Part shown: positions 17,761 to 39,908 of the stretch, piece by piece
Position numbering within the stretch: the stretch's first letter is position 1
Layout: each line of letters starts with the position of its first letter
Assembly (NCBI GenBank): GCA_944380675.1
Contig: CALWIH010000005.1
Coordinates: forward strand, 1-46,861
DNA length: 46,861 nt
DNA from: an uncultured Clostridia bacterium
GTDB taxonomy: Bacteria > Bacillota > Clostridia > Oscillospirales > Acutalibacteraceae
Direction of reading: 5' to 3'
The notes under the pieces: model-generated
Databases searched by the model: none
Told to the model about the DNA's origin: nothing
What the model saw: only the letters and a program-made list of their open reading frames with translations
Program-made: the position numbers and the translations under genes

Positions 17761-19836
17761 TCAAACGTAGAACAGGATATCCTCATAGACCGGGAACGGC
17801 CAGCTCTCCTTGCCGACGAGAACCTCGAGGGAATCGGCGGCGGCTCGCGCCTGCTCCATCGCGGGGATAACCTCGGCGCGATAGTACGCGGCGGCCTCGT
17901 GGACGTCCTGCGGGACGGCGTCCACCTTGCTCTGGAGCAGCTCCTCACCGGCGAGCAGCTCGGCGGACTTGGCGGAAATCCTGCCGGCGAGCGTCTTCTC
18001 CGCGGAGGCGTCGATGCCGAGACCGGCCTTGACGGCGGCGGAGGACGCAAGCTTCCCGGAATAGCCGAGGCAGGCGGGAAGAATCTGGCGGGAAATCATG
18101 CGGAGCATCGTTTCCGCCTCGATGTGAATCGTCTTGCTGTACTCCTCGAGGCCGATCTCCTCACGGGACTTCATCTCCTCGATGGTGTACACGCCGTGAC
18201 GCGTAAAGAGGGTGATGTTCTTTTCGCTGGTGTAGAGCGGCAGGGCGTCCGGCGTGGAGCGCAGGTTCAGCAGGCCGCGGCGGGCTGCCTCCTCCTCCCA
18301 CTCCTTGCTGTAGCCGTTGCCGTTGAAGATGATGCGGCGGTGAGCGGCAAGCTCGCGGCGGACAAGGGCGTTGAGCGCCGTCTCAAAATCTTCGGCTCCC
18401 TCGAGCTCGTCGGCGAAGACGCGCAGCGCCTCCGCGACGGCGGTGTTCAGCATGATGTTCGTGCACGCGATGTTGAAGGAGGAGCCGGGCATACGGAACT
18501 CAAACTTGTTGCCGGTAAAGGCGAACGGCGAGGTTCTGTTGCGGTCGGAATGATCGAGCGGAATCGGCGGCAGGACGGACGCGCCGACGGAGACGTACTC
18601 CTTCTGGCTGTCGCCGCACGCCTTTCCGGAGACGAGCGACTCGATGACGGCGTCGAGGTCGTCGCCGACGTACATCGAGACGATGGCGGGCGGCGCCTCG
18701 TTCGCGCCGAGACGGTGGTCGTTGCCGGCGCTCGCGACGGAGATGCGCAGCAGATCCTGATACTCGTCGACCGCCTTGATGACAGCCGTCAGGAACAGCA
18801 GGAACTGCGCGTTCGAGATCGGGGTCTTGCCGGGATCGAGCAGGTTCTCGCCCGTGTCGGTGGAAATCGACCAGTTGTTGTGCTTGCCGGAGCCGTTGAT
18901 ACCCTCAAACGGCTTCTCGTTGAGGAGGCAGACAAAGCCGTGGCGGCTCGCGACCTTCTTCATCATCTCCATGGCGAGCTGGTTGTGGTCGGTCGCGATG
19001 TTGGTGGTCGAAAAGACAGGCGCCATCTCATGCTGGCAGGGCGCGACCTCGTTGTGCTCCGTCTTCGCCGCGACGCCAAGCTTCCACAGCTCCTCGTTGA
19101 GGTCGTCCATGAACGCCTTGACGCGCGGACGGATCGAGCCGAAATAGTGGTCCTCAAGCTCCTGTCCCTTCGGGGCCGGCGCGCCGAACAGCGTGCGGCC
19201 GCTGAGAATCAGGTCGAGGCGCTTCGCGTAGTCCTCCTTGTTGATGAGGAAATACTCCTGCTCCGCGCCGACAGTCGTCGTCACGCGGCGGACGTCCTTG
19301 CCGAACAGCTTGAGCACGCGGCACGCCTGCTTACTGATGGCGTCCATCGAGCGCAGGAGCGGCGTCTTCTTGTCGAGGATTTCGCCCGTGTAGGAGCAGA
19401 ACGCGGTAGGAATGCACAGCGTGTTGTCCTTAATGAAGGCGTAGGAGGTCGGATCCCAGGCGGTGTAGCCGCGGGCCTCGAACGTGGCGCGCAGGCCGCC
19501 GGACGGGAAGGAGGAGGCGTCGGGCTCGCCCTTCGTCAGCTCCTTGCCGGAGAACTCCATGATGACGGAGCCGTCTCCCTGCGGAGAAAGGAAGGAATCG
19601 TGCTTCTCGGCGGTGACGCCCGTCATCGGCTGGAACCAGTGCGTGAAATGGGTCGCGCCGTGCTCGATGGCCCAGTCCTTCATCACGGAGGCGACGACGT
19701 TCGCGACGCCGGGGGCGAGGGGGCTGCCCTCCTCCATCGTCTTCTTGAGGGCGCGGAAAATATCCTTCGGGAGCCTGTCGCGCATGACGGACTCGTTAAA
19801 CGAAAGGCTTCCAAACATTTCAGGGACTCTGCTCAT
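17761..19836 (-). CDS. glnN: Glutamine synthetase type III
   Basis: 691 aa, far longer than GSI (about 440) and typical of GSIII. The N-terminus [23 protein letters not shown] is the GSIII-specific domain. Catalytic motifs follow: [17 protein letters not shown] (metal-binding glutamates), [12 protein letters not shown], the ATP-site segment [12 protein letters not shown] and the glutamate-binding [14 protein letters not shown]. It makes glutamine from glutamate, ammonium and ATP in the cytoplasm. The ribosome site AGGAG lies 10 bases before the ATG. It lies downstream of glnA and the ANTAR gene, behind a terminator that overlaps a hexaloop hairpin, so expression probably depends on read-through. 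Confidence 0.97.
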
Positions 19837-19903: not shown

Positions 19904-19955
19904 AAAAGGCGCCGCGGGAAGGGAGTTTTCCCCTTCACCGCAGCGCCTTTGCTGC
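19904..19955 (-). promoter_or_regulatory. Hexaloop hairpin overlapping a terminator, ANTAR gene to glnN
   Basis: On the minus strand GCAGC (19955-19951), loop AAAGGC (19950-19945) and GCTGC (19944-19940) form a perfect 5-bp hairpin with A at loop position 1 and G at 4. The same loop bases start a terminator: AAAGGCGCTGCGG (19950-19938) pairs over 13 bp with CCGCGGCGCCTTT, with an inner GAAGGG/CCCTTC stem and a TTTT tail (to 19904). The two folds exclude each other. The hairpin begins 5 bases after the ANTAR gene stop. I see no convincing promoter between it and glnN. Confidence 0.8.
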
Positions 19956-19960
19956 CTCAA

Positions 19961-20536
19961 TCAATCGTTTTGACTTTCATACTGCCGGATGACCGTCAAA
20001 GCGGCCTCCCGGCGGGAGATGCGCAGATCCATCGCGCGGCGTTCCAGGCAGTGGTGCGCCTCGTCCTCCGTGAGATGAAGACGCTCCACGAGGAGACATT
20101 TCGCGCGGCAGGCCAGACGCGTGTCGTCCAGCTTCTGGAGAAGCTCCGCGTTTTTCTTCTGCAGCTGCGCGATGCGCTGCCGCGAGACGGCCAACAGACG
20201 GATGGCCTGCGTCAGGGCGGAGCGGGAAATGGGCTTTTCCAGGACGAAGATCCCGAGCCGTTCGAGCGGCCGCGCGATCTCCGCGGCCTGCAGCGCGGGC
20301 GCGACGAGCACCACGCCCGCCATGGTGGCGTCGGCGAAGCTTGTCGCGAGCTCGCTGCCGAATTCATCGGGCAGCGGGGCGTTGATCAGTACAAGGTCAA
20401 GGGAAAGCTCGAGAAGCTTCCGCCTGGCCTCCCCGGCGTTGGCCGCCGTCACAAGACGGGAGCAGCCGCAGCCCTTGAGGAGCGACGCCAGTGCGGGAAG
20501 GGATTTCTCCCCGCTCACAATCAAGGCGTTCTCCAT
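19961..20536 (-). CDS. ANTAR-domain antiterminator with degenerate receiver (NitR-like)
   Basis: 191 aa from the ATG at 20536 (MENALIVSGEKSL), chosen for its GGAGGG ribosome site. Residues 1-120 have a receiver fold, but the phospho-acceptor Asp is Asn52 (LVLINAPLPDEFG) and the acidic pair is Ser8-Gly9; only Lys101 (VLEKP) remains. A short coiled coil (RIAQLQKKNAELLQKL) leads to the ANTAR domain (about 138-191) with its conserved Arg, Ala-Lys and Ala-Met pattern (CRAKCLLVERL, LERRAMDLRIS). ANTAR proteins bind hexaloop hairpins in leader RNA and prevent termination. A related nitR gene follows glnA in Clostridium saccharobutylicum. It lies 44 bases after glnA and before glnN; likely targets are the four hexaloop leaders nearby. 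Confidence 0.9.
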   Translation of the reverse strand: MENALIVSGEKSLPALASLLKGCGCSRLVTAANAGEARRKLLELSLDLVLINAPLPDEFGSELATSFADATMAGVVLVAPALQAAEIARPLERLGIFVLEKPISRSALTQAIRLLAVSRQRIAQLQKKNAELLQKLDDTRLACRAKCLLVERLHLTEDEAHHCLERRAMDLRISRREAALTVIRQYESQND

Positions 20537-20580
20537 GTTGATCCCTCCGTGCTGGAACTGAATTCCGGCGCTCATTTGCG

Positions 20581-21885
20581 TCAGATGCGATCGAAATACT
20601 GCTCGATTTCATACCGGTACGGATCGCCCGCCGCCTGATACGCCTCAAATTCTGCCCGCTTCTGGGTCAGATACTGCTCGAGCATCTTCTCCGGCAGAAC
20701 GGAACGAAGCCACTCGCTGGACGCTGCCGTCTCGAGCGCTTCGCCGAGCGACTGCGGAAGACGCTCGCCGGCCCGCTCCGCGAAGCCGTCGAAATCCGAG
20801 GACTGCGGAAGCGTGAGACCGTCACGGACGCCGCTGAGCGCCGCTTCAATGAGCAGCGCCGCCACCACATACGGGCTGCAGGCGGGATCCGGGGAGCGAA
20901 CCTCGATGCGGGAATCCGAACCGGAGGCGGCGGGAAGCCGCACAAGCTGCGCGCGGTTCTGCGCCGACCAGCCGATGGCCGAGGGGGCTTCAAAGCTTCC
21001 AAGGCGCCGGTAGGAGCCGGGAAGGGGGTTCGCGAAGGCGGTGATTGCCGGGATATGCCGCAGAATACCGGCCACCATGGAGGCCGCCTGCGGATCGGGA
21101 GCAGTCAGGAAATTTTCAAAGATGTTTCTGCCGTCTCTCCAGGCGGAGAGATTGAAGTGCAGGCCGCTGCCGCTCTCCTTCTCAATCGGCTTCGGGAGGA
21201 ACGACGCGAACAGTCCGCTCTGCGCCGCGATGGCCTTCACGGCCGTGCGGAGCGTCGCGAGATTGTCGGCGGCCTCAAGCGGCGGGGAGCGGTGGAAATC
21301 CACCTCGTTCTGCCCCGGCCCCTGCTCGTGATGCGAGCGCTCCGGGCGCAGCCCCATCTCCTCGAGCGTCAGGCAGATGCTGCGCCTGACATTCTCGCCA
21401 TGATCGAGAGGCGACATATCGAAGTAGCCGGCCTTGTCGTACGGCTTTAAGACGGGCTCTCCCCTCTCGTCGGTGGAAAAGAGGTAAAACTCGCACTCCG
21501 GGCCGAGCTGGAAGGTGAAGCCCGCGTCGAGCGCGCGCTTTTCCGTCTGCCGGAGCAGGAGTCTGCCGTCCCCCTCAAAGGGTCTGCCGTCAGGGTAGCG
21601 GATGGTGCAGTAGAAGCGGGCCACGCAGCCCTGCGAAGGCCGCCAGGGGAAGATGGCCAGCGTGTCCGGGTCGGGAAAAAGGAACAGATCCGACTCCGTC
21701 ACATTCCCGAAGCCGGGAATCGCCGAGGCGTCAAACGAGACGCCCTTCTCAAAAGCGTGCTCCAGATACGACGACAGAATCGCGATATTCTTTTGTACGC
21801 CGAAGATGTCGCAGAACGCCAGACGGATAAACTTGATGTCGTTTTCCTCGACGAACTGCAGAATATCGGAAATCCCCCGTGTCAT
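20581..21885 (-). CDS. glnA: Glutamine synthetase type I
   Basis: 434 aa from the ATG at 21885 (MTRGISDILQFVEENDIKFIRLAFCDIFG), which has a GGAGAGAG ribosome site. GSI motifs include GPECEFYLF (metal ligands), EQGPGQNEVDFH, SGLHFNLS (ATP region) and SPDPACSPYVVAA. The adenylylation-site tyrosine region of GSI-beta is absent, and the length fits GSI-alpha as in other Firmicutes. It lies between purC and the ANTAR gene on one strand with gaps of 52 and 44 bases and no terminator, so purC-glnA-ANTAR gene is probably one transcript. Confidence 0.95.
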   Translation of the reverse strand: MTRGISDILQFVEENDIKFIRLAFCDIFGVQKNIAILSSYLEHAFEKGVSFDASAIPGFGNVTESDLFLFPDPDTLAIFPWRPSQGCVARFYCTIRYPDGRPFEGDGRLLLRQTEKRALDAGFTFQLGPECEFYLFSTDERGEPVLKPYDKAGYFDMSPLDHGENVRRSICLTLEEMGLRPERSHHEQGPGQNEVDFHRSPPLEAADNLATLRTAVKAIAAQSGLFASFLPKPIEKESGSGLHFNLSAWRDGRNIFENFLTAPDPQAASMVAGILRHIPAITAFANPLPGSYRRLGSFEAPSAIGWSAQNRAQLVRLPAASGSDSRIEVRSPDPACSPYVVAALLIEAALSGVRDGLTLPQSSDFDGFAERAGERLPQSLGEALETAASSEWLRSVLPEKMLEQYLTQKRAEFEAYQAAGDPYRYEIEQYFDRI

Positions 21886-21937
21886 CGGGTTCTCTCTCCT
21901 TTCGCGCGCTTCGCCCCGCGGCGCGTCCAATCAATCC

Positions 21938-22648
21938 TTATTTGCCCAGCAGGCGGTGCAGCACCTCGCGGTACGCTTCCTCCTCGCCGCCGAGATCGCG
22001 GCGGAACAGGTCCTTGTCAAGATGGGCATGAGTCTTGACGTCCCAGAAGCGGCAGGTGTCGGGGCTGATCTCGTCCGCGAGGATGATCTTGCCCTCGGAA
22101 TCGCGGCCGAACTCAAGCTTGAAGTCGATGAGCTCAATACCGGCGGTCTTGAGGTACTCGCCGAGCGCGGCGTTGATCTGCATACTGTAATCGGCGATCT
22201 GGCGCAGCTCCTCGGGAGTGGCGACGCCCAGCGCGGCAATGTGGTACTCGTTGACCATCGGATCGCCGAGCGCATCGTCCTTGTAGCAGTACTCGAGCAC
22301 GGTGGTCTTGAGCTTCGTGCCCTCCTCCATGCCGAGGCGCTTGGCCAGGCTGCCGGCCGCCACGTTGCGGACGATAACCTCAAGCGGGACGATCTGCACT
22401 CTCTTGACGAGCGTCTCAGTCTCGGAAACCTCCTCGACGAGGTGGGTCGGAATTCCCTTGGTCTCGAGGAAACGCATCAGGTGGTTCGTCACCAGATTGT
22501 TGACGACGCCCTTGCCGCGGATCGTTCCGCGCTTGGCGCCGTTGCCGGCTGTCGCGTCGTCCTTATAGCGGACGAGGTAAACGTCAGGGCGGTCCGTTTT
22601 GAATACTTTCTTGGCCTTTCCTTCATAAAGCAGTTCCAGGTTTTCCAT
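21938..22648 (-). CDS. purC: Phosphoribosylaminoimidazole-succinocarboxamide synthase (SAICAR synthetase)
   Basis: 236 aa, usual length. It starts MENLELLYEGKAKKVFKTD, the PurC N-terminal signature, with the ATP-binding YEGKAKKV motif. Further motifs are VPLEVIVRNVAAGS, IELIDFKLEFG and ADEISPDTCRFWD. It catalyses the ATP-dependent addition of aspartate in purine synthesis. The ATG has a GGAAGAGAGGA ribosome site. No other purine genes flank it; instead it leads the glnA-ANTAR unit, with a leader that carries an A1/G4 hexaloop hairpin. Confidence 0.97.
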   Translation of the reverse strand: MENLELLYEGKAKKVFKTDRPDVYLVRYKDDATAGNGAKRGTIRGKGVVNNLVTNHLMRFLETKGIPTHLVEEVSETETLVKRVQIVPLEVIVRNVAAGSLAKRLGMEEGTKLKTTVLEYCYKDDALGDPMVNEYHIAALGVATPEELRQIADYSMQINAALGEYLKTAGIELIDFKLEFGRDSEGKIILADEISPDTCRFWDVKTHAHLDKDLFRRDLGGEEEAYREVLHRLLGK

Positions 22649-22673
22649 ACTAGCATTCCTCTCTTCCTGCGGC

Positions 22674-22742
22674 GTTGTTTCCGTAGATGATCCACAAAGG
22701 GCACTACGGAAGTATGTACCCCGCAGCGCCCTTGCTGTTTAC
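22674..22742 (-). promoter_or_regulatory. purC-glnA leader with hexaloop hairpin and competing folds
   Basis: Three minus-strand folds compete. First, CAGC (22737-22734), loop AAGGGC (22733-22728), GCTG (22727-22724), beginning about 5 bases after the predicted start. Second, a 13-bp stem pairing AAGGGCGCTGCGG (22733-22721) with CCGTAGTGCCCTT (22709-22697), with two or three G-U pairs and only a short TTTG tail. Third, TTCCGTAG (22711-22704) with CTACGGAA (22686-22679), which excludes the second but not the first. Confidence 0.7.
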
Positions 22743-22748
22743 AAATGT

Positions 22749-22777
22749 ATTGTAGCGCTTTGAAATGCGTCTGTCAA
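22749..22777 (-). promoter_or_regulatory. SigA promoter of purC-glnA
   Basis: On the minus strand a perfect TTGACA (22777-22772), 17-base spacer, TACAAT (22754-22749). Predicted start near 22742. The 388-base purC-carA gap holds this promoter, the divergent carA promoter, and both structured leaders. Confidence 0.88.
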
Positions 22778-22888
22778 GTCAATCCGCGGAAAGTCCTCAG
22801 ATTTTATACTTTGCTGTAAAATCATCGCTCCGAGGCTCTCGGAATCGTGCCATCTTCTGAAAATCGCAAAAGGACGGTTTGCAGGATC

Positions 22889-22917
22889 TTGACCTTTCTC
22901 CTGCAAAGTGCTATAAT
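22889..22917 (+). promoter_or_regulatory. SigA promoter of carAB
   Basis: TTGACC (22889-22894), 17-base spacer, perfect TATAAT (22912-22917). Predicted start near 22924. Confidence 0.9.
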
Positions 22918-22925
22918 GCCGTAGA

Positions 22926-22982
22926 TGGACAAAGGCGTTCAGAGGCCGCTTTCACCAAAGGCGGCCCCGGGACGCCTTTTTT
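22926..22982 (+). promoter_or_regulatory. carAB leader attenuator with hexaloop hairpin
   Basis: TGGAC (22926-22930), loop AAAGGC (22931-22936) and GTTCA (22937-22941) form a 5-bp hairpin (one G-U) with A1 and G4 in the loop. The loop is also the start of a terminator: AAAGGCGT (22931-22938) pairs with ACGCCTTT (22972-22979), with an inner GGCCGC/GCGGCC stem, followed by TTTTTTCTTTT. The terminator lies between the only promoter and carA, so it must be conditional. Confidence 0.85.
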
Positions 22983-23036
22983 CTTTTGTATTTTCCGTGC
23001 GCGCGGCTGCGCGGCCACGGGACAGGAGGGTACGCC

Positions 23037-24143
23037 ATGGAAAAAACCTGTTATCTTGTATTGGAAAACGGCGCATGGTTCGCCGGAAAAAGCTTCGGCG
23101 CGCAGCCCGCGAGCGGCGGCGTCGCCGGGGAAGCCGTCTTCACCACGGCCATGACCGGCTATCTCGAGACGCTCACCGACCCGAGCTACTGCGGGCAGCT
23201 CGTCGTACAGACCTTCCCGCTCATCGGGAATTACGGCGTCATCCCCGCCGATTTTGAAAGCGTACGCCCGCGTCTGGCGGCTTATATTGTAAGAGAATGG
23301 TGCCGGGTTCCCTCCAATTTCCGAAGTGAGGGGGATCTCGACGCCTTTTTAAAAGAAAACGGCATTCCGGGTCTTTACGGAATCGACACGCGCGCCCTCA
23401 CCCGAACGCTCCGCGACCACGGGACGATGAACGCCCTTTTGACCGAAGAGGCTCCGCCCTACGGCGAGGAGCTGCTCGAGCGGCTCCGCGGATTCCGGCA
23501 GGAGCCGAGCGTCCCGCTGGTGACGCGGCAGAAGGCGGAGGCTTACGGGGGCAGCGGGCCGCACGTCGTCCTCTGGGACTTCGGCGCAAAGCAGAACCTC
23601 ATCCGGGAGCTCACAAAGCGCGGCTGCCGCGTGACCGCCGTTCCTTCCTTCACGACGGCGGAGGAGCTTCTGGCTCTTCGCCCTGACGGCGTCCTCCTCT
23701 CCAACGGCCCCGGCGACCCGGCGGACAATATGGACATCGTGCGGGAGGCCGAAAAGCTTTTCGCGGCGAAAATTCCGATGATGGGCGTGTGCCTCGGCCA
23801 TCAGCTCATGGCGCTCGCGAACGGCGCCGTGACAGAAAAGCTCCCGTTCGGCCACCGCGGCGCGAACCAGCCCGTCAAGGATCTCCGGACGGGGCGCGTC
23901 GCCGTAACAAGCCAGAACCACGGCTACACCGTCCGGCCCGACAGCCTGCCCGAGACCGCTTCGCTGCGCTTTGTCAACTGCAACGACGGCACCTGCGAGG
24001 GCATCGATTACAGGAACGCCCCCGCGTTCTCGGTGCAGTTTCATCCGGAGGCGTGCGGCGGGCCGCACGACACCGCCTACCTCTTTGATTGCTTTTTGAA
24101 GCTCGTCAATCACGCGGAAAGCGAGGGATTCTCATGCCGGTAA
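23037..24143 (+). CDS. carA: Carbamoyl-phosphate synthase small (glutaminase) subunit
   Basis: 368 aa. The start ATG at 23037 (MEKTCYLVLENGAWFAGKSFG) has an AGGAGGG ribosome site. The N-terminal CarA domain (TTAMTGYLETLTDPSY) is followed by a class I glutamine amidotransferase domain with the nucleophile Cys in MMGVCLGHQL and the His-Glu pair in VQFHPEACGG. It releases ammonia from glutamine and channels it to CarB to make carbamoyl phosphate for arginine and pyrimidines. Its last 10 bases overlap carB. Controlled by a leader attenuator. Confidence 0.97.
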   Translation: MEKTCYLVLENGAWFAGKSFGAQPASGGVAGEAVFTTAMTGYLETLTDPSYCGQLVVQTFPLIGNYGVIPADFESVRPRLAAYIVREWCRVPSNFRSEGDLDAFLKENGIPGLYGIDTRALTRTLRDHGTMNALLTEEAPPYGEELLERLRGFRQEPSVPLVTRQKAEAYGGSGPHVVLWDFGAKQNLIRELTKRGCRVTAVPSFTTAEELLALRPDGVLLSNGPGDPADNMDIVREAEKLFAAKIPMMGVCLGHQLMALANGAVTEKLPFGHRGANQPVKDLRTGRVAVTSQNHGYTVRPDSLPETASLRFVNCNDGTCEGIDYRNAPAFSVQFHPEACGGPHDTAYLFDCFLKLVNHAESEGFSCR

Positions 24144-27100
24144 AGCAGCATCTGAAAAAAGTTCTTGTCGTCGGCTCGGGGCCGATTGTGATCGGCCAGG
24201 CCGCCGAATTTGACTATGCCGGCACGCAGGCGTGCCGCGCCCTGCGCGAGGAGGGCCTCAACGTCGTCCTCGTCAACTCGAACCCGGCCACCATCATGAC
24301 GGACGGCGCGATCGCGGACGAGGTCTACGTCGAGCCCTTAACGCTGCCGTCGCTTAGGGAGATCATCCGCCGCGAAAAGCCGGACGGCCTGCTCTCCACG
24401 CTCGGCGGGCAGACGGGGCTGACGCTCTCCATGCAGCTCGCGCGCGAGGGCTTCCTCGAGGCGCAGGGCGTGGAGCTGCTCGGCGCGCGCCTTGAAACGA
24501 TCGAGAAGGCGGAGGATCGCGAGCTGTTCAAGGAGACGATGGAGTCCATCGGCGAGCCGGTCATCCCGTCGCTCGTCGTCACCGAGGTTGGGGACGCGCT
24601 CGACTTCGCGTCGTCCATCTCCTATCCCGTCATCGTACGCCCGGCCTTCACGCTCGGCGGCACGGGCGGCGGCATTGCCGAAAACGAGAAGGAGCTCGCC
24701 TCCATCGCGGCGAACGGCCTCAGGCAGTCCCCCATTCATCAGATTCTGGTGGAAAAATGCGTCTCCGGCTGGAAGGAGATTGAGTTTGAGGTGATGCGCG
24801 ACGCGGCGGGAAACGTCATCACCGTCTGCTCGATGGAAAACCTCGATCCCGTCGGCATCCACACGGGCGACTCCATCGTCGCCGCGCCCGCTCTCACGCT
24901 CGCGGATAAAGAATATCAGATGCTGCGGACGGCGGCGCTCAACATCATCTCCTCGCTCGGCATCGAGGGCGGCTGCAACTGCCAGTTCGCACTCGACCCG
25001 GAGAGCTTCCGCTATGCCGTCATCGAGGTGAACCCGCGCGTTTCGCGCTCCTCGGCGCTCGCCTCGAAGGCGACCGGCTACCCCATCGCCCGCGTCGCGG
25101 CGAAGATCGCCGTCGGGCTGACGCTCGACGAGATCCAGAACGAGGTCACCGGCAAGACGATGGCGTGCTTCGAGCCGGCGCTCGACTATGTGGTCGTCAA
25201 GTTCCCGAAGTGGCCGTTTGACAAGTTCATCTACGGGTGCCGCCGTCTCGGGACGCAGATGAAGGCGACCGGCGAGGTGATGGCGATCGGCCGCAGCTTT
25301 GAGGCTGCGATGATGAAGGCCGTGCGCGGCGCGGAGCTTTCGCTCGACACGCTCGCAATGCCGAAGCTCGCCGCTTTGACGGACGAGGAGCTGAGGAAAA
25401 AGATCCGCGCGCAGGACGACGAGCGCGTCTTCGCCGTCTATGAGGCGCTGCGGCGCGGGCAGACCATCGGCGAGCTGCACCGCCTGACAAGGATCGACGA
25501 GTGGTTCCTCGCGAAGCTCTGGAACCTTGCCAAAATGGATCGCACGCTCGCAGAGGATCCGCTGACTGAAGAGCTGTACCGCGAGGCAAAGCGGATGGGC
25601 TTCCCGGACAGCGCCGTGCGCCGCCTCTCCGGCGGCGAGCTGCCGCCCGCCCTTCCCGCCGCCTGCAAGATGGTCGACACCTGCGGCGCGGAATTCGAGG
25701 CGGAAACGCCGTACTTCTATTCGTCGCTCGCCGAGGAGGATGAGGCGCTGCCGTTCATCCGCCGCCGCGCTTCCGGGAAGCCGGTGGTGCTCGTCTTCGG
25801 CTCGGGTCCTATCCGCATCGGGCAGGGCATCGAATTCGACTACGCGTCCGTCCACTGCGTGATGGCGCTCAAGCGCGCCGGGTATGAGGTGGCGATCGCG
25901 AACAACAACCCTGAAACCGTCTCGACCGACTTCAACACCGCGGACCGCCTCTACTTCGACCCGCTCACGGCGGAGGACGCGCTGCGCATCGTGGAGCTCG
26001 AGCAGCCCGTCGGCGTCGTCGTGGCGTTCGGCGGACAGACGGCCATCAAGCTGACAAAGCCGCTTGCCGCCGCGGGCGTGCCGATCCTCGGCACGCAGCC
26101 GGACGGAATCGACCTCGCGGAGGACAGAGGCCGATTCGACGCCCTGCTCGAATCGCTCGGCATCAGCCGTCCGGCGGGACGCGCCGTCCTGACCGAGGAG
26201 GAGGCGCTCCGGGCCGCGAACGAGCTCGGCTACCCCGTCCTCATGCGTCCGAGCTATGTGCTCGGCGGGCAGAACATGATCATCGCCTTCTCCGACGCCG
26301 ACATCCGCGAGTACATGAACGTGATACTGACGGCGAATCCGGACACTGACGTTCTCATCGACAAGTATCTGATGGGCACGGAGGTGGAGGTCGACGCCGT
26401 CTGCGACGGAGAGGACGTGCTCATCCCCGGCATCATGGAGCACATCGAGCGCGCGGGCATCCACTCGGGCGACTCCATCGCCGTCTATCCGGCGTGGAAC
26501 CTGAGCGAGAGCCTCACAGAGCAGCTCGTCGACTATTCGAAAAAACTCGCCGTCTCCCTCGGCGTGAAGGGCCTCGTCAACATCCAGTATGTGATTCACG
26601 AGGGGAAAATCTACGTCATCGAGGCGAATCCCCGCTCGTCGCGCACCATCCCGTATATCAGCAAGGTGACGGGCATCCCGCTGGTGGATCTGGCCGTGCG
26701 CGCGATGCTCGGCGAGCGTCTGCGCGACATGGGCTACGGCACCGGCCTCGCCGCTCCCGCCGCCTTCCACGCGGTGAAGGTGCCGGTCTTCTCGTTCGAG
26801 AAGCTCGGCGGCGTCGACACGCAGCTCGGACCGGAGATGAAGTCGACGGGCGAGGTGCTCGGCATCGCTCCGACGATGGAGGAAGCGCTCTGCAAGGGAC
26901 TTCTCGCGGCGGGCTACCGCATCGAGACGGACAAGGGACTGCTCGTCACGGTGCGCGACTCCGACAAGAGCGAGATCGCCCCGATTGCCGCCGCCTTCTC
27001 CGCTCTCGGCTGTCCGCTCTACGCGACGGAGGGCACCGCCGCCGTCCTGCGCAAAGCTGGGCTGACGGTGGAGACGGTAAAGAAGATCCATGAGGCGAAG

Positions 27101-27340
27101 AAAAACACGATGACGCTCCTCGAGAGCGGGACGGTCGGCTGCATCCTCTCGACGTCGGCCAAGGGCCGCATCCCGGCGCGCGACAGCGTCAAACTGCGCC
27201 GGAAGGCCGTCGAGCTCGGGATTCCGTGCCTGACCTCGCTCGACACCGCCGGAGCCCTTGCGTCGATTCTCGGCCGCCATTTCCGGCAGGAGGAGCTCGA
27301 GCCCATCGACATCGCGAAAATTCTTCCCGCAAAAAAATGA
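24134..27340 (+). CDS. carB: Carbamoyl-phosphate synthase large subunit
   Basis: 1068 aa, full length. Two homologous ATP-grasp halves are visible: the first begins KVLVVGSGPIVIGQAAEFDYAG, the second VLVFGSGPIRIGQGIEFDYA near residue 555. Each carries IEVNPR/IEANPR metal-binding motifs. The C-terminal MGS-like allosteric domain (about 930-1068) contains DSDKSEIAPIAAAF. The ATG at 24134 overlaps the end of carA by 10 bases, with GAGGGA upstream, indicating translational coupling and equal subunit amounts. Confidence 0.97.
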   Translation: MPVKQHLKKVLVVGSGPIVIGQAAEFDYAGTQACRALREEGLNVVLVNSNPATIMTDGAIADEVYVEPLTLPSLREIIRREKPDGLLSTLGGQTGLTLSMQLAREGFLEAQGVELLGARLETIEKAEDRELFKETMESIGEPVIPSLVVTEVGDALDFASSISYPVIVRPAFTLGGTGGGIAENEKELASIAANGLRQSPIHQILVEKCVSGWKEIEFEVMRDAAGNVITVCSMENLDPVGIHTGDSIVAAPALTLADKEYQMLRTAALNIISSLGIEGGCNCQFALDPESFRYAVIEVNPRVSRSSALASKATGYPIARVAAKIAVGLTLDEIQNEVTGKTMACFEPALDYVVVKFPKWPFDKFIYGCRRLGTQMKATGEVMAIGRSFEAAMMKAVRGAELSLDTLAMPKLAALTDEELRKKIRAQDDERVFAVYEALRRGQTIGELHRLTRIDEWFLAKLWNLAKMDRTLAEDPLTEELYREAKRMGFPDSAVRRLSGGELPPALPAACKMVDTCGAEFEAETPYFYSSLAEEDEALPFIRRRASGKPVVLVFGSGPIRIGQGIEFDYASVHCVMALKRAGYEVAIANNNPETVSTDFNTADRLYFDPLTAEDALRIVELEQPVGVVVAFGGQTAIKLTKPLAAAGVPILGTQPDGIDLAEDRGRFDALLESLGISRPAGRAVLTEEEALRAANELGYPVLMRPSYVLGGQNMIIAFSDADIREYMNVILTANPDTDVLIDKYLMGTEVEVDAVCDGEDVLIPGIMEHIERAGIHSGDSIAVYPAWNLSESLTEQLVDYSKKLAVSLGVKGLVNIQYVIHEGKIYVIEANPRSSRTIPYISKVTGIPLVDLAVRAMLGERLRDMGYGTGLAAPAAFHAVKVPVFSFEKLGGVDTQLGPEMKSTGEVLGIAPTMEEALCKGLLAAGYRIETDKGLLVTVRDSDKSEIAPIAAAFSALGCPLYATEGTAAVLRKAGLTVETVKKIHEAKKNTMTLLESGTVGCILSTSAKGRIPARDSVKLRRKAVELGIPCLTSLDTAGALASILGRHFRQEELEPIDIAKILPAKK

Positions 27341-27359
27341 TGCCAAGCGGCTTATCCTG

Positions 27360-27406
27360 TGCTATACTGAAAAAGGCGCGGCCTTCCCGGCGGGACGCTC
27401 CCGCCG
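27360..27406 (+). promoter_or_regulatory. Possible dapL promoter and leader hairpin
   Basis: TGCTATACT (27360-27368) is an extended -10 element 20 bases after carB, without a clear -35. Downstream, CGGCGGGA (27388-27395) pairs perfectly with TCCCGCCG (27399-27406) over a 3-base loop, with no T tract. Confidence 0.45.
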
Positions 27407-27454
27407 CGCGCCCAGATCCGGAAGGGAACCGATCAAACACGCAGGAGGTACGAC

Positions 27455-28636
27455 ATGAAAATCAACCGGCATTATCTCTCGCTTGAGGAGAGCTATCTGT
27501 TTTCCGAGATCGCCCACCGCGTCTCCCGCTATACGCAGGAGCACCCGGAGGCCGACGTCATCCGCATGGGCATCGGCGACGTGACGCTGCCGCTGTGCGA
27601 GGCTGCCGTCAAGGCGCTGCACGACGCGGCCGACGACCAGGCGAAGAAGGCAACCTTCCACGGCTACGGCCCGGAGCAGGGCTATGACTTTGTCCGCGAG
27701 GCCGTGAGGGACTACTACGCCTCGTTCGGCGTCGCGGTCGACGCGGCGGACATTTTTGTCGGCGACGGAGCGAAGAGCGACGTCGGCAACATTCTCGACC
27801 TGTTCGACGAGGACAACACCGTCCTCATTCCCGACCCGGTCTATCCCGTCTACCGCGACACGAACCTGATGGCGGGGCGGCGCATCGTCTATCTCGACGC
27901 GAACCGCGAAAACGGCTTCCTCCCGATGCCGAATCCGGAGCAGAAGGCCGATATCATCTACCTGTGCTCTCCGAACAATCCGACGGGCGCCGTCTACAGC
28001 CGCGAGCAGCTGACGGAATGGGTGCGCTACGCGAACGCGCAGGACGCCGTGCTGCTCTTTGACGCGGCCTACGAGGCGTTTGTGCAGGACCCTGCCCTGC
28101 CGCGCAGCATCTTTGAGATTGAGGGCGCGCGCGAGTGCGCGATCGAATTCTGCTCCCTCTCGAAGACGGCGGGCTTTACCGGTATGCGCTGCGGGTATAC
28201 GGTGATCCCCGGCTCTCTCACGCGCGGGGGAGCCTCCCTGCGCGCCATGTGGCTGCGCCGCCAGACGACGAAATTCAACGGTGCGTCCTACCCGGTGCAG
28301 CGCGCCGCGGCGGCCGTGTTCTCGCCCGAGGGACTCGAGGGCTGCCGGAAAAATCTCGCCGTCTACCGCGAAAACGCCCTGCTCATCTCGAATACGCTCC
28401 GCGACCTCGGGATCTGGCACGTCGGCGGCGTGAACTCCCCGTACATCTGGATGCAGTGCCCGAACGGAATGTCCTCGTGGGACTTCTTTGACCTCCTGCT
28501 TGAGAAGGCGCATATCGTCGGCACGCCGGGCAGCGGCTTCGGCAAAAACGGAGAGGGCTTCTTCCGCCTGACGGCGTTCGGCTCCCCCGAGGCCACCCGG
28601 GAGGCCATGGATCGCCTGCGCGCCCTTCTCGCCTGA
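27455..28636 (+). CDS. dapL: LL-diaminopimelate aminotransferase
   Basis: 393 aa. A fold-type I PLP aminotransferase with the DapL signature start (YLFSEIAHRVSRYTQEHP, then VIRMGIGDVTLPL). PLP-site residues appear as SPNNPTG, the Schiff-base lysine in SLSKTAGFTGMRCG, and the C-terminal FFRLTAF Arg. It converts tetrahydrodipicolinate directly to LL-diaminopimelate using glutamate, bypassing the acylated intermediates; the product feeds lysine and peptidoglycan. The AGGAGG ribosome site is ideal. Followed by a terminator. Confidence 0.95.
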   Translation: MKINRHYLSLEESYLFSEIAHRVSRYTQEHPEADVIRMGIGDVTLPLCEAAVKALHDAADDQAKKATFHGYGPEQGYDFVREAVRDYYASFGVAVDAADIFVGDGAKSDVGNILDLFDEDNTVLIPDPVYPVYRDTNLMAGRRIVYLDANRENGFLPMPNPEQKADIIYLCSPNNPTGAVYSREQLTEWVRYANAQDAVLLFDAAYEAFVQDPALPRSIFEIEGARECAIEFCSLSKTAGFTGMRCGYTVIPGSLTRGGASLRAMWLRRQTTKFNGASYPVQRAAAAVFSPEGLEGCRKNLAVYRENALLISNTLRDLGIWHVGGVNSPYIWMQCPNGMSSWDFFDLLLEKAHIVGTPGSGFGKNGEGFFRLTAFGSPEATREAMDRLRALLA

Positions 28637-28687
28637 TGAAGCAGTCTTTTTTGACAGAAAATTAAATATGACTGCATTATGAACGCG

Positions 28688-28737
28688 GCCCCGTTGCTTC
28701 TCAGACGAGAAAAACGGGGCTGTTTTGCGTTGTTTTT
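28688..28737 (+). terminator. Terminator of dapL
   Basis: GCCCCGTT (28688-28695) pairs with AACGGGGC (28713-28720). An inner TTCTC/GAGAA stem caps it. TGTTTTGCGTTGTTTTT follows. Confidence 0.85.
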
Positions 28738-28759
28738 CTCATTTTTGTAGTTTTGCACA

Positions 28760-28818
28760 TTCACAGGCCGTATTGTGAAGATTTGTTTTTGCAATTTAAT
28801 TTATGATAAATTGCAAAA
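28760..28818 (+). promoter_or_regulatory. Palindromic operator candidates upstream of the amt promoter
   Basis: A perfect 12-bp inverted repeat, TTTTGCAATTTA (28787-28798) and TAAATTGCAAAA (28807-28818), has an 8-base spacer and is centred about 56 bases before the predicted amt start, a typical activator position. A second, weaker repeat TTCACA/TGTGAA (28760-28765, 28774-28779) lies just upstream. The AT-rich patch stands out from the GC-rich surroundings. No known regulator consensus is recognised. Confidence 0.6.
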
Positions 28819-28823
28819 TTAGA

Positions 28824-28852
28824 TTGAATTTTTCTCCCTGCGGATCTATAAT
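28824..28852 (+). promoter_or_regulatory. SigA promoter of amt
   Basis: TTGAAT (28824-28829), 17-base spacer, perfect TATAAT (28847-28852). Predicted start near 28859. The 321-base dapL-amt gap holds the dapL terminator, the palindromes, this promoter and the leader attenuator. Confidence 0.88.
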
Positions 28853-28858
28853 ACAAAT

Positions 28859-28903
28859 CGAAGCAAGGGTGCTGCGGTAAGGAAGCCGCGGCACCCTTCT
28901 TTT
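28859..28903 (+). promoter_or_regulatory. amt leader attenuator with two A1/G4 hexaloops
   Basis: First fold: AGC (28862-28864), loop AAGGGT (28865-28870), GCT (28871-28873), extended by CG/CG across an A-G mismatch. Second fold, a terminator: 28865-28878 pairs over 14 bp with 28885-28898 (AAGGGTGC with GCACCCTT at the base), and its apical loop AAGGAA (28879-28884) is itself an A1/G4 hexaloop; CTTTTG follows. The first hairpin prevents the base of the terminator from forming. Confidence 0.8.
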
Positions 28904-28957: not shown

Positions 28958-30685
28958 ATGGGACTGAGCTATGTTTCCGCTGACGTCATATGGGTTCTGC
29001 TCGGCGCGGCTCTCGTCTTCTTTATGCAGGCAGGCTTCGCAATGGTCGAGACCGGATTTACCCGGGCAAAAAACGCAGGCAACATCATCATGAAAAACCT
29101 GATGGACTTTGCCATCGGCACGCCCATCTTCTGGTTCTTCGGCTTTGGCCTCATGTTCGCGGGCACCGGCTCGCTGATCGGCGGGCTTGATTTCTTCATC
29201 CAGGGCGACTACAGCTTTATGGGGCTTTCCGTTCCGCTGTGGGCGTACGCGATTTTCCAGACCGTCTTCTGCGCCACCGCGGCGACCATCGTCTCCGGCG
29301 CGATGGCGGAGCGCACCAAGTTCATCTCCTACTGCATTTACAGCGCCGTGATCAGCGCCTTCATCTATCCCATTTCCGGCCACTGGATCTGGGGCGGCGG
29401 CTGGCTCGCGCAGCTCGGCTTCCATGATTTCGCCGGTTCGACCGCCGTGCATATGGTCGGCGGCGTGGCCGCCCTCATCGGCGCGAAGATTCTCGGGCCC
29501 CGTATCGGCAAGTACGACAAGAACGGCAAGCCCCGCGCGATTCCCGGCCACAGCCTGACGCTCGGCGCGCTCGGCGTGTTCATCCTCTGGTTCTGCTGGT
29601 TCGGCTTCAACGGCTGCTCGACCATCTCCATCTCGAGCGAGGAGAGCATGGTTGCCGCCGGACGCATCTTCTTCACCACCAACCTGGCTGCCGCCACCGC
29701 GACGGTCGCCGTCATGATCATCACCTGGATCCGCTATAAGAAGCCCGACGTCTCGATGACGCTCAACGGCTCCCTCGCCGGCCTCGTGGCCATTACCTCC
29801 GGCTGCGACGTCGTCACCCCCGTCGGCGCGTTCTTTATCGGCCTGATTGCGGCATTCGTTGTCGTCTTCGGCATTGAGTTTGTCGACAAGGTGCTCAAGA
29901 TCGACGATCCGGTCGGCGCCATCGGCGTGCACGGTATGTGCGGCGCAACCGGCACGATCGTAACGGGACTGTTCGCTTACTATCTGACTGACGACGCCGG
30001 AAACCCGCTCGGCCTGTTCTACGGCGGCGGCTTCTCCTTCCTCGGCACTCAGCTGCTCGGCATGATCGCGGTGATCGCCTGGGTTGCCGTCACCATGACC
30101 ATCGTTTTCACCATCATCAAGAAGACCGTCGGCCTGCGCGCCAGCCGCGAGGAGGAAATCCGCGGCCTGGACGTTACGGAGCACAACCTCGTGAGCTCCT
30201 ACGCGGACTTCCTGCCGATGCCTCCCCAGGTTCTCACCGGCGAGACCGAGAACGCCACCTCCGTCCTGCTGCAGTCTCATGACGCTCCCGCCGCCGCGCC
30301 GGCCATTCAGCCCGCCGCGACCGAGGCAAAGCTGACGAAGCTTTCGATCCTCTGCCGTCAGGAGAGCTTCTCGCAGCTCAAGGAGGCCATGAACGCCATC
30401 GGCGTAACCGGCATGACCGTCACCCAGGTGCTCGGCTACGGCCTCCAGAAGGGCCGCGACACCTACTACCGCGGCGTCAAGCTCGAAGACGCAAAGCTCC
30501 TGCCGAAGGTGAAGGTGGAGATTGTCGTGAGCAAGGTGCCTGTGGACACCGTCATCGAGGCGGCGCGCGAAGCGCTGTACACCGGACGTGTCGGCGACGG
30601 CAAGATTTTCGTCTACAACGTGGAAAACACGGTTCGGATCCGCACCGGAGAGCAGGGCTTCGACGCTCTGCAGGGCGAGGACTGA
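28958..30685 (+). CDS. amt: Ammonium transporter fused to a PII signalling domain
   Basis: 575 aa from the ATG at 28958 (MGLSYVSADVIWVLLG), which has an AGGAGGG ribosome site. Residues 1 to about 415 are an 11-helix Amt channel with FFMQAGFAMVETGF near the start and the twin-His positions in GHWIWGGGW and IGVHGMCGATG. After an Ala/Pro linker (AAPAIQPAATEA), residues 459-575 form a complete PII domain: the T-loop region GYGLQKGRDTYYRGVK, ATP-site GRVGDGKIF and C-terminal RIRTGE. The tyrosine uridylylated in Escherichia coli GlnB is replaced by leucine. The PII domain probably gates the channel by nucleotide or 2-oxoglutarate state. Leader attenuator and upstream palindromes indicate nitrogen control. 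Confidence 0.95.
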   Translation: MGLSYVSADVIWVLLGAALVFFMQAGFAMVETGFTRAKNAGNIIMKNLMDFAIGTPIFWFFGFGLMFAGTGSLIGGLDFFIQGDYSFMGLSVPLWAYAIFQTVFCATAATIVSGAMAERTKFISYCIYSAVISAFIYPISGHWIWGGGWLAQLGFHDFAGSTAVHMVGGVAALIGAKILGPRIGKYDKNGKPRAIPGHSLTLGALGVFILWFCWFGFNGCSTISISSEESMVAAGRIFFTTNLAAATATVAVMIITWIRYKKPDVSMTLNGSLAGLVAITSGCDVVTPVGAFFIGLIAAFVVVFGIEFVDKVLKIDDPVGAIGVHGMCGATGTIVTGLFAYYLTDDAGNPLGLFYGGGFSFLGTQLLGMIAVIAWVAVTMTIVFTIIKKTVGLRASREEEIRGLDVTEHNLVSSYADFLPMPPQVLTGETENATSVLLQSHDAPAAAPAIQPAATEAKLTKLSILCRQESFSQLKEAMNAIGVTGMTVTQVLGYGLQKGRDTYYRGVKLEDAKLLPKVKVEIVVSKVPVDTVIEAAREALYTGRVGDGKIFVYNVENTVRIRTGEQGFDALQGED

Positions 30686-30732: not shown

Positions 30733-30763
30733 CTTGTCTCATGAGGAAAGGAAGCAGATTGCG

Positions 30764-32564: not shown

Positions 32565-32584
32565 AAAAAAAGAATAACGGGAAT

Positions 32585-32667
32585 GAAGTGCTCCCCCGGG
32601 AAACCGGAACCGCTTGAAAGAGCTGATGACTTCTGCGATGTTTACGCGGAAGCTGTCGGCTTTTTTT
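32585..32667 (+). ncRNA. Riboswitch candidate with overlapping terminator, antiporter leader
   Basis: A three-way junction can form: P1 GAAGT (32585-32589) with ACTTC (32629-32633); P2 CCGG-GAAA-CCGG (32596-32607); P3 GCTT-GAAA-GAGC (32612-32623). P1 and P3 share bases with a strong terminator: AGCTGATG and CTTCTGCG (32621-32637) pair with CGCGGAAG and TGTCGGCT (32645-32661), followed by seven T. The folds exclude each other, the logic of a transcriptional riboswitch. Known Na+ and Li+ riboswitch classes sit before such antiporters, but I cannot assign the class. Confidence 0.65.
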
Positions 32668-39203: not shown

Positions 39204-39908
39204 ATGAAAAAACCGATCATCGGACTGACGCCCACCCTCGACGGCGATCACGGCACGATGCAGACGCGTCTCGACTACGCGAAAGCCGTCGAGCACGCGG
39301 GCGGCGTCCCGCTGCTGCTGCCGCCGCTCGGGCCGGACGCTCTGCGCGAGGCGGCGCTCGCCTGCGGCGGGCTGCTCTTTACGGGCGGGGTGGACGTCCA
39401 CCCCGCGCTCTACGGCGAGGAGCCTCTCGCCTCGTGCGGCGAGATTTCGCCGAAGCGCGACGAGATGGAGCTCGCTCTGCTGCGCCTCGCCCTCGACCGG
39501 GAGCTGCCCGTCCTCGGCATCTGCCGGGGCATCCAGCTGCTGAACGTCGGGCTCGGCGGGACGCTCTGGCAGGATCTTCCCTCCCAGCTGGGGACGCAGC
39601 TCTGCCACAGCCAGCGCCCGCCGTACGACATGACGATCCACACGGTCCGCCTCGAGGAGGACTCGCCGCTGTACGCCCTGATCGGGCGGCGCAGCTATGA
39701 GGTCAACAGCACGCACCATCAGGCCGTGCGGGAGCTCGCCCCGTCGCTGCGGGCCGCGGCGCGCGCGTCCGACGGCGTCATCGAGGCTGTCTGGAGGCCG
39801 GAAAGCCGCTTTTTCCTCGGCGTGCAGTGGCATCCGGAATTCCGGTACCGCATCGACGGCGGCGCTTCGGCTCTTTTCGGCGCGTTTGTCGAGGCGTGCC
39901 GGTCATAA
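39204..39908 (+). CDS. Class I glutamine amidotransferase-like gamma-glutamyl hydrolase (PuuD-like)
   Basis: 234 aa. It starts MKKPIIGLTPTLDGD; the nucleophile elbow GICRGIQLLNVGLGG contains the catalytic Cys, and the VQWHPEF segment supplies the His-Glu pair. The length and GGVDVHPALYGEEP motif match gamma-glutamyl-gamma-aminobutyrate hydrolases and peptidase C26 relatives, which split gamma-glutamyl amide bonds. The ribosome site GGGAGGAA is good. Physiological substrate not clear; the neighbours do not include polyamine genes. Confidence 0.9.
   Translation: MKKPIIGLTPTLDGDHGTMQTRLDYAKAVEHAGGVPLLLPPLGPDALREAALACGGLLFTGGVDVHPALYGEEPLASCGEISPKRDEMELALLRLALDRELPVLGICRGIQLLNVGLGGTLWQDLPSQLGTQLCHSQRPPYDMTIHTVRLEEDSPLYALIGRRSYEVNSTHHQAVRELAPSLRAAARASDGVIEAVWRPESRFFLGVQWHPEFRYRIDGGASALFGAFVEACRS

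Follow-up and report, generated by a model that had tools for sequence, protein, structure and literature searches.

Results and Discussion

Architecture of the Locus

The window, i.e., the whole analysed stretch of 46,861 nucleotides (contig CALWIH010000005.1 of an uncultured Clostridia bacterium, family Acutalibacteraceae, order Oscillospirales), carries purC, glnA, an ANTAR gene and glnN on the reverse strand, and carA, carB and amt on the forward strand (Table 1). A purF ORF follows amt and, judging by the spacing, is probably part of the amt operon. Hexaloop hairpins had been predicted in the leaders of purC, glnN, carA and amt, and all four were found, with closing stems of 4, 5, 5 and 3 bp, respectively. 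Each loop has the expected A at position 1 and G at position 4. The loop was also thought to open the 5′ arm of a terminator-like stem, and loop base 1 proved to be stem base 1 in all four leaders (stems of 14–20 pairs). Because of this double role, the hexaloop and terminator folds are mutually exclusive. GCTGCGG, said to come next in three leaders, does so in three of the four, the exception being carA (GTTCAGA). The weakest features in the window are the U-tract of purC and the short hairpin stem of amt.

Table 1. Genes and predicted leader features of the locus.
Feature	Positions	Strand	Remarks
purC-glnA-ANTAR promoter, TTGACA, 17 nt, TACAAT	22749..22777	−	11/12 matches; preserved in relatives
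purC leader hexaloop hairpin, CAGC[AAGGGC]GCTG	22724..22737 (loop 22733-22728)	−	covariation; 5 nt from predicted +1 to stem
purC terminator-like stem	22697..22733	−	hexaloop and 3′ arm in common with hairpin; poor U-tract TTTGTGG
purC leader third arm, CTACGGAA	22679..22686	−	complements TTCCGTAG (22711-22704) of terminator 3′ arm; by eye; also in relatives
purC, SAICAR synthetase	21938..22648	−	
glnA, glutamine synthetase	20581..21930	−	ORF, true start perhaps downstream; best NCBIfam type I, under its cut-off
ANTAR protein, 191 aa	19961..20536	−	sole ANTAR match in assembly
glnN leader hexaloop hairpin, GCAGC[AAAGGC]GCTGC	19940..19955 (loop 19950-19945)	−	within operon
glnN terminator-like stem	19905..19950	−	hexaloop and 3′ arm in common with hairpin; tail TCTCATATAG
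glnN, type III glutamine synthetase	17761..19836	−	
carA promoter, TTGACC, 17 nt, TATAAT	22889..22917	+	11/12 matches
carA leader hexaloop hairpin, TGGAC[AAAGGC]GTTCA	22926..22941 (loop 22931-22936)	+	2 nt from predicted +1 to stem
carA terminator stem	22931..22979	+	strong U-tract
carA, carbamoyl phosphate synthetase small subunit	23037..24143	+	
carB, large subunit	24134..27340	+	ORF; named by position after carA
amt promoter, TTGAAT, 17 nt, TATAAT	28824..28852	+	10/12 matches
amt leader hexaloop hairpin, AGC[AAGGGT]GCT	28862..28873 (loop 28865-28870)	+	3 nt from predicted +1 to stem
amt terminator stem	28865..28898	+	14 pairs
amt, ammonium transporter with fused PII domain	28958..30685	+	ORF from 28913; start 28958 read from sequence
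purF ORF	30734..32161	+	begins about 50 nt past amt

The ANTAR gene, placed inside the set by the original prediction, was found between glnA and glnN. Its ANTAR domain (PF03861) matched with E 3.4e-11. The protein has a receiver-like domain lacking the phospho-Asp, a helical linker and the ANTAR domain. The phosphorylatable Asp is Asn in the window protein, and none of the 13 aligned proteins has Asp there. Mapping the EutV hexaloop contacts by hand onto the alignment showed that K149, E160, M172 and R175 correspond to K146, E157, M169 and R172. K143 and K147 are changed to Arg and Y164 to His, and R142, R168, N173 and R177 are not preserved. In 11 of 12 named loci, the first gene upstream of ANTAR is a glnA match, at a distance of 12 to about 400 nt. 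The gene for NitR/GlnR, the glnA-linked ANTAR regulator of solvent-forming clostridia, adjoins glnA in the same way.

Chance and Covariation

In the window count, an AARGGY loop had to be closed by 3 bp or more and to open a terminator-like stem of 10 or more pairs, and the 10 bases that followed had to include 4 or more T. Four hexaloop–terminator overlaps were obtained, as compared with a mean of 0.03 and a maximum of 1 in 100 dinucleotide shuffles; seven control loop patterns yielded 0 or 1 each. In 19 homologous leaders, covariation was 0.496 for the hairpin (0.202 shuffled) and 0.492 for the terminator (0.250 shuffled), values reached by none of 500 shuffles. With 55 leaders, the hairpin value was 0.484 versus 0.200 shuffled. 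The covarying columns of the hexaloop stem were 3-16, 4-15 and 5-14 in the 19-leader set and 48-61 in the 55-leader set. Since the A3 sequences had been selected for A1/G4 and for 3 or more closing base pairs, freedom from bias is limited there to the outer pairs. Hairpin pairs changed on both sides were not unusual (67/500 shuffles for 19 leaders, 125/500 for 55), nor were further pair types (284/500, 19 leaders). The homologous leaders, where the original prediction was open to refutation, preserve the overlap, and both folds carry compensatory changes. Chance hexaloops within terminators were ruled out by the shuffles, the covariation and the glnN control described below.

A known riboswitch or Rfam leader was likewise rejected: at the Rfam gathering score, the whole window yielded only a fluoride riboswitch elsewhere, and the purC–carA region gave sub-threshold matches only. 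The short pattern ARGGYGCTGCGG was discarded as a regulon finder, as its genome count (124 forward, 113 reverse) was not above that of the backward control (145/138).

Position at the Transcript Start

R1 itself contains no promoter, and promoters were sought up to 95 nt upstream of its matches. After removal of two opposite-strand duplicates from the 80 matches listed, 78 were classified, six of which are R1 seeds. In 59 of 66 matches with a hexaloop, the best promoter preceded the loop by 9–20 nt, as opposed to 2 of 12 without a hexaloop stem; the latter divide into 10/78 that also lack the promoter and 2/78 with the promoter only. In the 59 promoter-borne leaders, the hexaloop sits a median of 4 nt past the predicted transcript start, and the terminator finishes near +45 in 58. 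The terminator stems of the three promoter-borne window leaders end 40–56 nt past the predicted start.

R2 itself contains no terminator 3′ arm. Among the R2 matches listed, 60 were retrieved: 51 with E < 1e-4, five additional ones from ANTAR-negative genomes and four just above that limit. Of these 60, 57 have the hexaloop stem. Of the 57 further hexaloop matches among those listed, 45 have a terminator-like stem of 9 or more pairs with 4 or more T on the loop, versus 4.65 with shuffled tails. A looser rule (7 pairs, no T required) was passed by 49 of the 57 listed, versus 16.2 with shuffled tails, and the stricter rule was therefore preferred. R2 alone was rejected as a finder in its own genome: apart from the three promoter-borne window leaders, which ranked above them, matches had E 0.015 or worse, a level expected of promoter background. 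The asnB and gltB leaders were not among its 49 own-genome matches.

Association with the ANTAR Gene

An ANTAR gene was found in 69 of 72 leader-bearing genomes of the family versus 91 of 150 overall, and in 104 of 112 genomes of the order with a raw R1 match (no hexaloop filter) versus 233 of 394 overall, with Fisher tests uncorrected for relatedness. Upstream of glnN, 20 sampled ANTAR-negative genomes yielded no element; G011 and G077 were omitted from this sample as known leader bearers, and one sequence was just 235 nt long. On the ANTAR-positive side, the 20 glnN genes were hand-picked, eight being already among the R2 matches listed, and they gave the element in 8/20 by the strict rule (absent from 12/20) and in 15/20 including partial matches. 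The other 12 genes comprised two strict, five partial and five with nothing.

These results bear on the alternative that the leaders are plain attenuators or terminators governed not by ANTAR but by a different RNA-binding protein, by a small ligand or through constitutive partial termination, with the hexaloop as a by-product of the terminator sequence. R1 also matches plain terminators without a hexaloop stem (e.g., G000:C58, 39.7 bits), and some hexaloop matches occur in genomes without a detected ANTAR gene. Leaders precede assigned genes in G011, G077 and G151 (completeness 96, 84 and 75%), where no ANTAR gene was detected. Among 123 hexaloop matches, 11 have no assigned gene, five of them in ANTAR-negative genomes of varying quality (G009, G103, G121, G122 and G152); in G152, which is 99% complete, a well-formed element precedes an ATP synthase gene. 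However, covariation links the two arms of the hexaloop stem even though the 5′ one is not shared with the terminator. The co-occurrence, the glnN control, the similarity of the gene set to ANTAR targets predicted elsewhere and the fact that no Rfam family reaches threshold on the leaders also argue against a by-product, which makes this alternative highly improbable.

Predicted Regulon Membership

The element also precedes asnB and gltB in the same genome; in both cases, the promoter rule used identified none at the usual spacing. Thus, the four leaders of the supposed local set do lie in the window, but these two members are on other contigs. Control of the listed genes by one protein was also proposed. 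The overlap is conserved and tracks the ANTAR gene, in line with this proposal, but the proposed regulon extends beyond the window. In most cases across the family and order, the element stands upstream of nitrogen-assimilation genes. Outside the genus, a nitrogen-metabolism gene followed 52 of 58 R1 matches with the hexaloop versus 1 of 11 without. Genes at unassigned matches were judged by eye first, ten then via Pfam, and a truncated amt (G124:C19) by eye alone. In relatives, gdhA, asnA, a GOGAT-domain gene and citrate synthase additionally bear leaders. The purC and carA leaders are present in all six genus members examined, and purA-carA bears one in another genus (L023).

One Hexaloop or Two

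Well-studied ANTAR targets carry two hexaloop hairpins, P1 and P2, and the published target searches considered here used two-hairpin models (PMC3369931). Mutation of EutV targets indicated that both hairpins are required, and deletion of P1 abolished induction (Ramesh 2012). Our leaders could accordingly be canonical dual-hexaloop sites whose P1 was missed, because the transcript starts further upstream or the P1 loop is odd. P1–P2 pairs do stand before a terminator in the relatives L249 and L263, P1-like hairpins lie upstream of the predicted promoter in L218 and L220 (two of 23 order-level loci), and the P1 search covered six-base loops only. Against this, P1 was found in the predicted transcript of none of the 23 further order-level loci (60 nt upstream were searched for two promoterless ones), although the same finder recovers the P1 of L249 and L263. 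The glnN leader has no nearby promoter to limit its transcript, and still no P1 occurs within 60 nt ahead of it in any of six genus members. Together with the promoter spacing given above, this leaves a missed P1 very unlikely.

Since P1 was not found and the predicted starts leave no room for it, we did not file the leaders as the dual-hexaloop RNA of Ramesh 2012. The notion of an ordinary ANTAR site holds for the A1/G4 hexaloop overlapping a terminator, but not for the second hairpin, which is absent. By their sequence, the leaders are a single-hexaloop, transcript-start variant, for which protein binding and read-through would be expected.

Proposed Mechanism

We consider it very likely that the leaders act as co-transcriptional on/off switches of the ANTAR antitermination type, with just one hexaloop, which as a rule sits at the 5′ end of the RNA. 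The switch is probably a hairpin at the tip of the transcript that overlaps the stop signal and is flipped by a regulator encoded nearby. By default, as sequence, folding and covariation show, the nascent RNA forms the terminator. Under nitrogen limitation, the ANTAR protein would bind the A1/G4 hexaloop as it leaves the RNA polymerase and hold the 3–5 bp hairpin. The terminator 5′ arm would be sequestered and transcription would therefore continue, by analogy with EutV and NasR. As the receiver-like domain has no phosphorylation site, the signal probably arrives via a partner or ligand instead of a kinase; GlnA or PII may be such a partner. The predicted targets of this one protein are amt-PII (perhaps with purF), both glutamine synthetases, purC, carAB, asnB and gltB.

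The read-out at purC is less certain owing to the weak U-tract and the conserved extra arm. purC alone might use a different mode, e.g., pairing of this third arm with the terminator 3′ arm, or control at the translation level. The TTTGTGG tail, the complementarity of the two segments and the enforced hexaloop fold, just 7.7 kcal/mol above the best fold, point in this direction. The promoter spacing, the hairpin and the overlap nevertheless match the other leaders, the U-tract is better in L022 purC, and another genus also has a purC leader (L172, where the script found no terminator). A separate mode for purC is thus possible but rather doubtful, and we retain the common hexaloop switch.

Comparison with Known Systems

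The leaders of Enterococcus faecalis eutP-eutG-eutS-eutA resemble the present ones in that a genome has several, with A1/G4 hexaloops of which the second overlaps the terminator, and EutV is also an ANTAR protein with a receiver domain. They differ in requiring P1 and P2 at tight spacing, while here one hexaloop lies mostly at the transcript 5′ end, and EutV is phosphorylated on Asp54, where our protein has Asn (PMC3369931; PMC8934654). EutV binds isolated P1 or P2 with about the same affinity as both (PMC3369931; PMC8934654). NasR/nasF of Klebsiella oxytoca shares the A1/G4 hexaloop, the terminator overlap and the link to nitrogen assimilation, but has two hairpins, a NIT sensor domain and one operon; the affinity of NasR for P2 by itself is low, about 12 versus 1 µM (PMC7496416; PMC3369936). 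ANTAR leaders were predicted in Desulfotomaculum and others at genes for PII, ammonium transporters and glutamate, glutamine and arginine synthases; the passage describing them does not name purine genes, and single-hexaloop leaders are not expected there because a two-hairpin model was used (PMC3369931).

One ANTAR dimer contacts one hexaloop according to Walshe et al. 2022, who considered that single-hexaloop targets may exist, suggested EutX RNA and certain Mycobacterium tuberculosis stem-loops as candidates, and called for bioinformatics on such targets (PMC8934654). They expect single hexaloops where there is no polymerase time limit, whereas ours stand on terminators ending near +45 (PMC8934654). 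We lean toward the view that ANTAR antitermination across the order works largely through a single 5′ hexaloop, with no recruitment hairpin. The protein would have to engage the hairpin before transcription has passed roughly 45 nt, in contradiction to the present rule that co-transcriptional ANTAR control needs P1. The role of P1 would fall to the polymerase while it is still early and promoter-proximal, or to the RNA 5′ end, and in some genera the same switch would couple the synthesis of purines and carbamoyl phosphate to nitrogen assimilation.

Conclusions

The leaders form a natural set of putative single-hexaloop attenuators in many genera of one order, with terminators ending near +45, and the set makes the P1-recruitment model directly testable. 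To our knowledge, regulation in these gut bacteria has been little studied. We propose a nitrogen regulon for them, one that in some genera would bring the synthesis of purines and carbamoyl phosphate under nitrogen control.

The two folds of the window leaders

A hexaloop hairpin with A and G at loop positions 1 and 4 was found in all four window leaders (upstream of purC, glnN, carA, and amt). In each, the loop forms the beginning of a terminator-like stem of 14–20 pairs, which bears out the original prediction that the loop doubles as the start of the terminator 5' arm. This combination with an AARGGY loop occurs four times in the window, as compared with 0.03 per dinucleotide shuffle. RNA folding yielded −37.8, −33.2, −30.5, and −36.6 kcal/mol for the terminators of the glnN, carA, amt, and purC leaders, versus −21.7, −19.8, −11.1, and −28.9 kcal/mol, respectively, with the hexaloop enforced. 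The lone RNAs favor the terminator fold, and therefore the hexaloop state needs help. Read-out is least certain for the purC leader, whose U-tract is weak and which carries a third, conserved arm.

The host assembly (2.70 Mb, 92.88% complete) comprises the window as one contig, and the ANTAR gene of the window is its sole ANTAR match. Relatives that have names include Candidatus Caccousia and Anaeromassilibacillus; locus L020 comes from the cultured isolate Anaeromassilibacillus sp. An200. The purF ORF opens approximately 50 nt past amt. A gene similar to the Peptidase C26 gene of the window follows a promoter-bearing match of the terminator model R1 (see below) without a hexaloop stem at another locus (L102).

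Features of the window and their positions
Feature	Position	Strand	Remark
purC leader arm CTACGGAA	22679-22711	-	Can pair with the 3' arm of the terminator; relatives retain it in altered form
purC, glnA, ANTAR protein gene, glnN		-	
carA, carB, LL-diaminopimelate aminotransferase, amt-PII, purF		+	carB named by position
amt with fused C-terminal PII domain	28958-30685	+	
Fluoride riboswitch (Rfam RF01734)	32570-32642	+	44.9 bits; upstream of the exchanger ORF
Sodium/hydrogen exchanger family ORF	32694-33908		
Peptidase C26 / glutamine amidotransferase gene	39204-39908	+	

Conservation and covariation

The contig scan of genomes with an ANTAR alignment gave 12 loci. Such leaders were detected by script in the five other members of the genus and at more distant loci, and a covariance model built on the terminator pairs without the promoter (R1) recovered further ones that the script had overlooked. 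Across 19 leaders, both sides of a pair had changed in 22 cells of the hairpin (8.3 expected) and in 29 cells of the terminator (7.4 expected). The covariation scores were 0.496 for the hairpin and 0.492 for the terminator, versus 0.202 and 0.250 after shuffling, and neither was reached by any of 500 shuffles. For the hairpin, the number of covarying pairs (67/500 shuffles) and the pair types (284/500) were unremarkable in this set. Shifting the pairs by 1–3 columns resulted in a far lower covariation score. The pair of columns 48–61, which lies outside the selection rule, was CG in 31, GC in 16, AU in 2, UG in 1, and other in 5 of 55 family leaders. The hexaloop–terminator overlap is thus kept in homologous leaders with covariation in both folds; a common arm that pairs and covaries with two different partners is the pattern expected of two mutually exclusive functional folds.

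The extent of the proposed regulon

In the host genome, R1 gave 16 matches with the four window leaders at the top. Two more leaders precede an asparagine synthase gene (GGAC[AAGGGC]GTCC, 29.6 bits) and a glutamate synthase gene (TTTGAC[AAAGGC]GTCAAA, 25.0 bits). Both are outranked by some plain terminators that lack the hexaloop stem. Such terminators, among them the strong match C58:42-84 with 39.7 bits, are common false positives of R1. The regulon proposed as local is supported for its four leaders, and the set is wider than the window.

The leaders recur when related genomes are searched with the covariance models. In the family survey (150 genomes), 78 of 80 listed R1 matches were classified, six of them being R1 seeds; two opposite-strand duplicates were left out. 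Hexaloop stem and promoter were both present in 59, the stem only in 7, the promoter only in 2, and neither in 10. Of those with both, 53 precede glnN (21), amt (11), a GOGAT amidotransferase-domain gene (10), asnA (5), glnA (2), carA (2), or purC (2). Such target genes lie downstream of none of the ten matches with neither element and of one of the two with the promoter only. A second model of promoter and hairpin without the terminator 3' arm (R2) gave 57 further hexaloop matches among 60 fetched from the matches listed; 45 of the 57 carried a terminator-like stem on the loop, versus 4.65 with shuffled tails. Genes for glutamate dehydrogenase and citrate synthase were among the added targets, as were circularly permuted ATP-grasp genes, these in two genera (L196 and L072, in genomes G104 and G125). 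The leader upstream of citrate synthase (L190 in G095) could link the supply of 2-oxoglutarate to the demand for nitrogen.

Leaders of purC and carA were present in all six genus members examined. Locus L023 has a purA–carA leader, L172 a purC leader in another genus, and at L025 carA comes after the ANTAR gene. At the order level (394 genomes), R1 matches occurred in 112 genomes of 69 genera, and 19 of 23 further loci viewed precede glnN, amt, asnA, asnB, or gltB.

Co-occurrence with the ANTAR gene

A hexaloop match before an assigned gene was found in 72 of the 150 family genomes, 69 of which carry an ANTAR gene, versus 91 of 150 overall (Fisher 2.9e-19, relatedness not corrected for). Of the 112 order genomes that had a raw R1 match, 104 were ANTAR-positive, versus 233 of 394 overall. 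As a gene-content control, glnN itself was present in 118 of 150 genomes. The leader was upstream of glnN in none of 20 sampled ANTAR-negative genomes; the exceptions, G011 and G077, lie outside the sample. For 20 ANTAR-positive genomes, the corresponding figures were 8 under the strict rule and 15 with partial matches. Eight of these genomes were already among the listed R2 matches; the remaining 12 gave two strict matches, five partial ones, and five with nothing. In 11 of the 12 named loci, the next upstream neighbor of the ANTAR gene is a glnA match.

Genome G152 (99% complete) shows a promoter and hexaloop leader before an ATP synthase A-chain gene (L059) and no ANTAR match above the cut-off.

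One hairpin instead of two

The well-studied ANTAR targets contain two hexaloop hairpins, P1 and P2, as described in PMC3369931, where EutV induction was lost on P1 deletion, and in PMC8164766. In contrast to the EutV targets, the leaders here have a single hexaloop directly after the promoter, which resembles TTGACA-17-TATAAT and sits immediately 5' of the hairpin. The promoter search covered up to 95 nt of upstream sequence, and its best site was 9–20 nt 5' of the loop in 59 of the 66 hexaloop matches, versus 2 of the 12 others. Taking the seventh base past the −10 box as the predicted +1, the stem begins a median of 4 nt later (n = 59; range −1 to 10), and the median end of the terminator stem is +45.5 (n = 58; range 34 to 65).

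Although the glnN leader has RNA upstream of it, no P1 was found in the preceding 60 nt in any of six genus members; nor was one found within the predicted transcript at 23 order-level loci, two of which had no promoter by the rule used. At two of the 23, P1-like hairpins lie upstream of the predicted promoter. The same finder reported P1 in L249 (G007) and L263 (G094), where P1 and P2, joined by a linker of 22 nt in the former and 32 nt in the latter, precede the terminator upstream of glnN; L263 has an additional single hexaloop beside a promoter. Upstream of glnN, three hexaloop hairpins occur at L264 (G102) and two at L265 (G105), apparently as tandem hexaloop–terminator units. Single and double forms thus coexist in the group. 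Since the two-hairpin feature was sought and not found, these RNAs were not assigned to the dual-hexaloop family. Their mode of action appears to be that of ANTAR antiterminators, and single-hexaloop variant is the most fitting name for them.

Implications for the probable mechanism

According to Walshe et al. (PMC8934654), the EutV dimer contacts one hexaloop, and either P1 or P2 in isolation is bound by EutV roughly as well as the two together; P1 was termed a recruitment hairpin. Single-hexaloop targets were expected there where the time limit of the transcribing polymerase is absent, whereas here they occur on terminators very near the start, where that limit is severe. Binding by the window ANTAR protein may be faster or tighter, or it may be assisted by the early elongation complex. 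Among the key EutV contacts, E160, K149, M172, and R175 are kept in this protein, and R142, R168, N173, and R177 are not. In the main texts of the open-access papers searched, we found none that dealt with ANTAR leaders of the single-hexaloop kind from this group; among these papers, a single hexaloop was discussed by Walshe et al. only, who name EutX RNA and certain stem-loops of M. tuberculosis as potential examples (PMC8934654).

The phospho-acceptor Asp is absent in 13 of 13 aligned ANTAR proteins, so the signal probably arrives via a partner or ligand. GlnA or PII would be candidate partners, because the ANTAR gene adjoins glnA and a PII domain sits on Amt, a fusion that makes the transporter and the nitrogen sensor a single protein.
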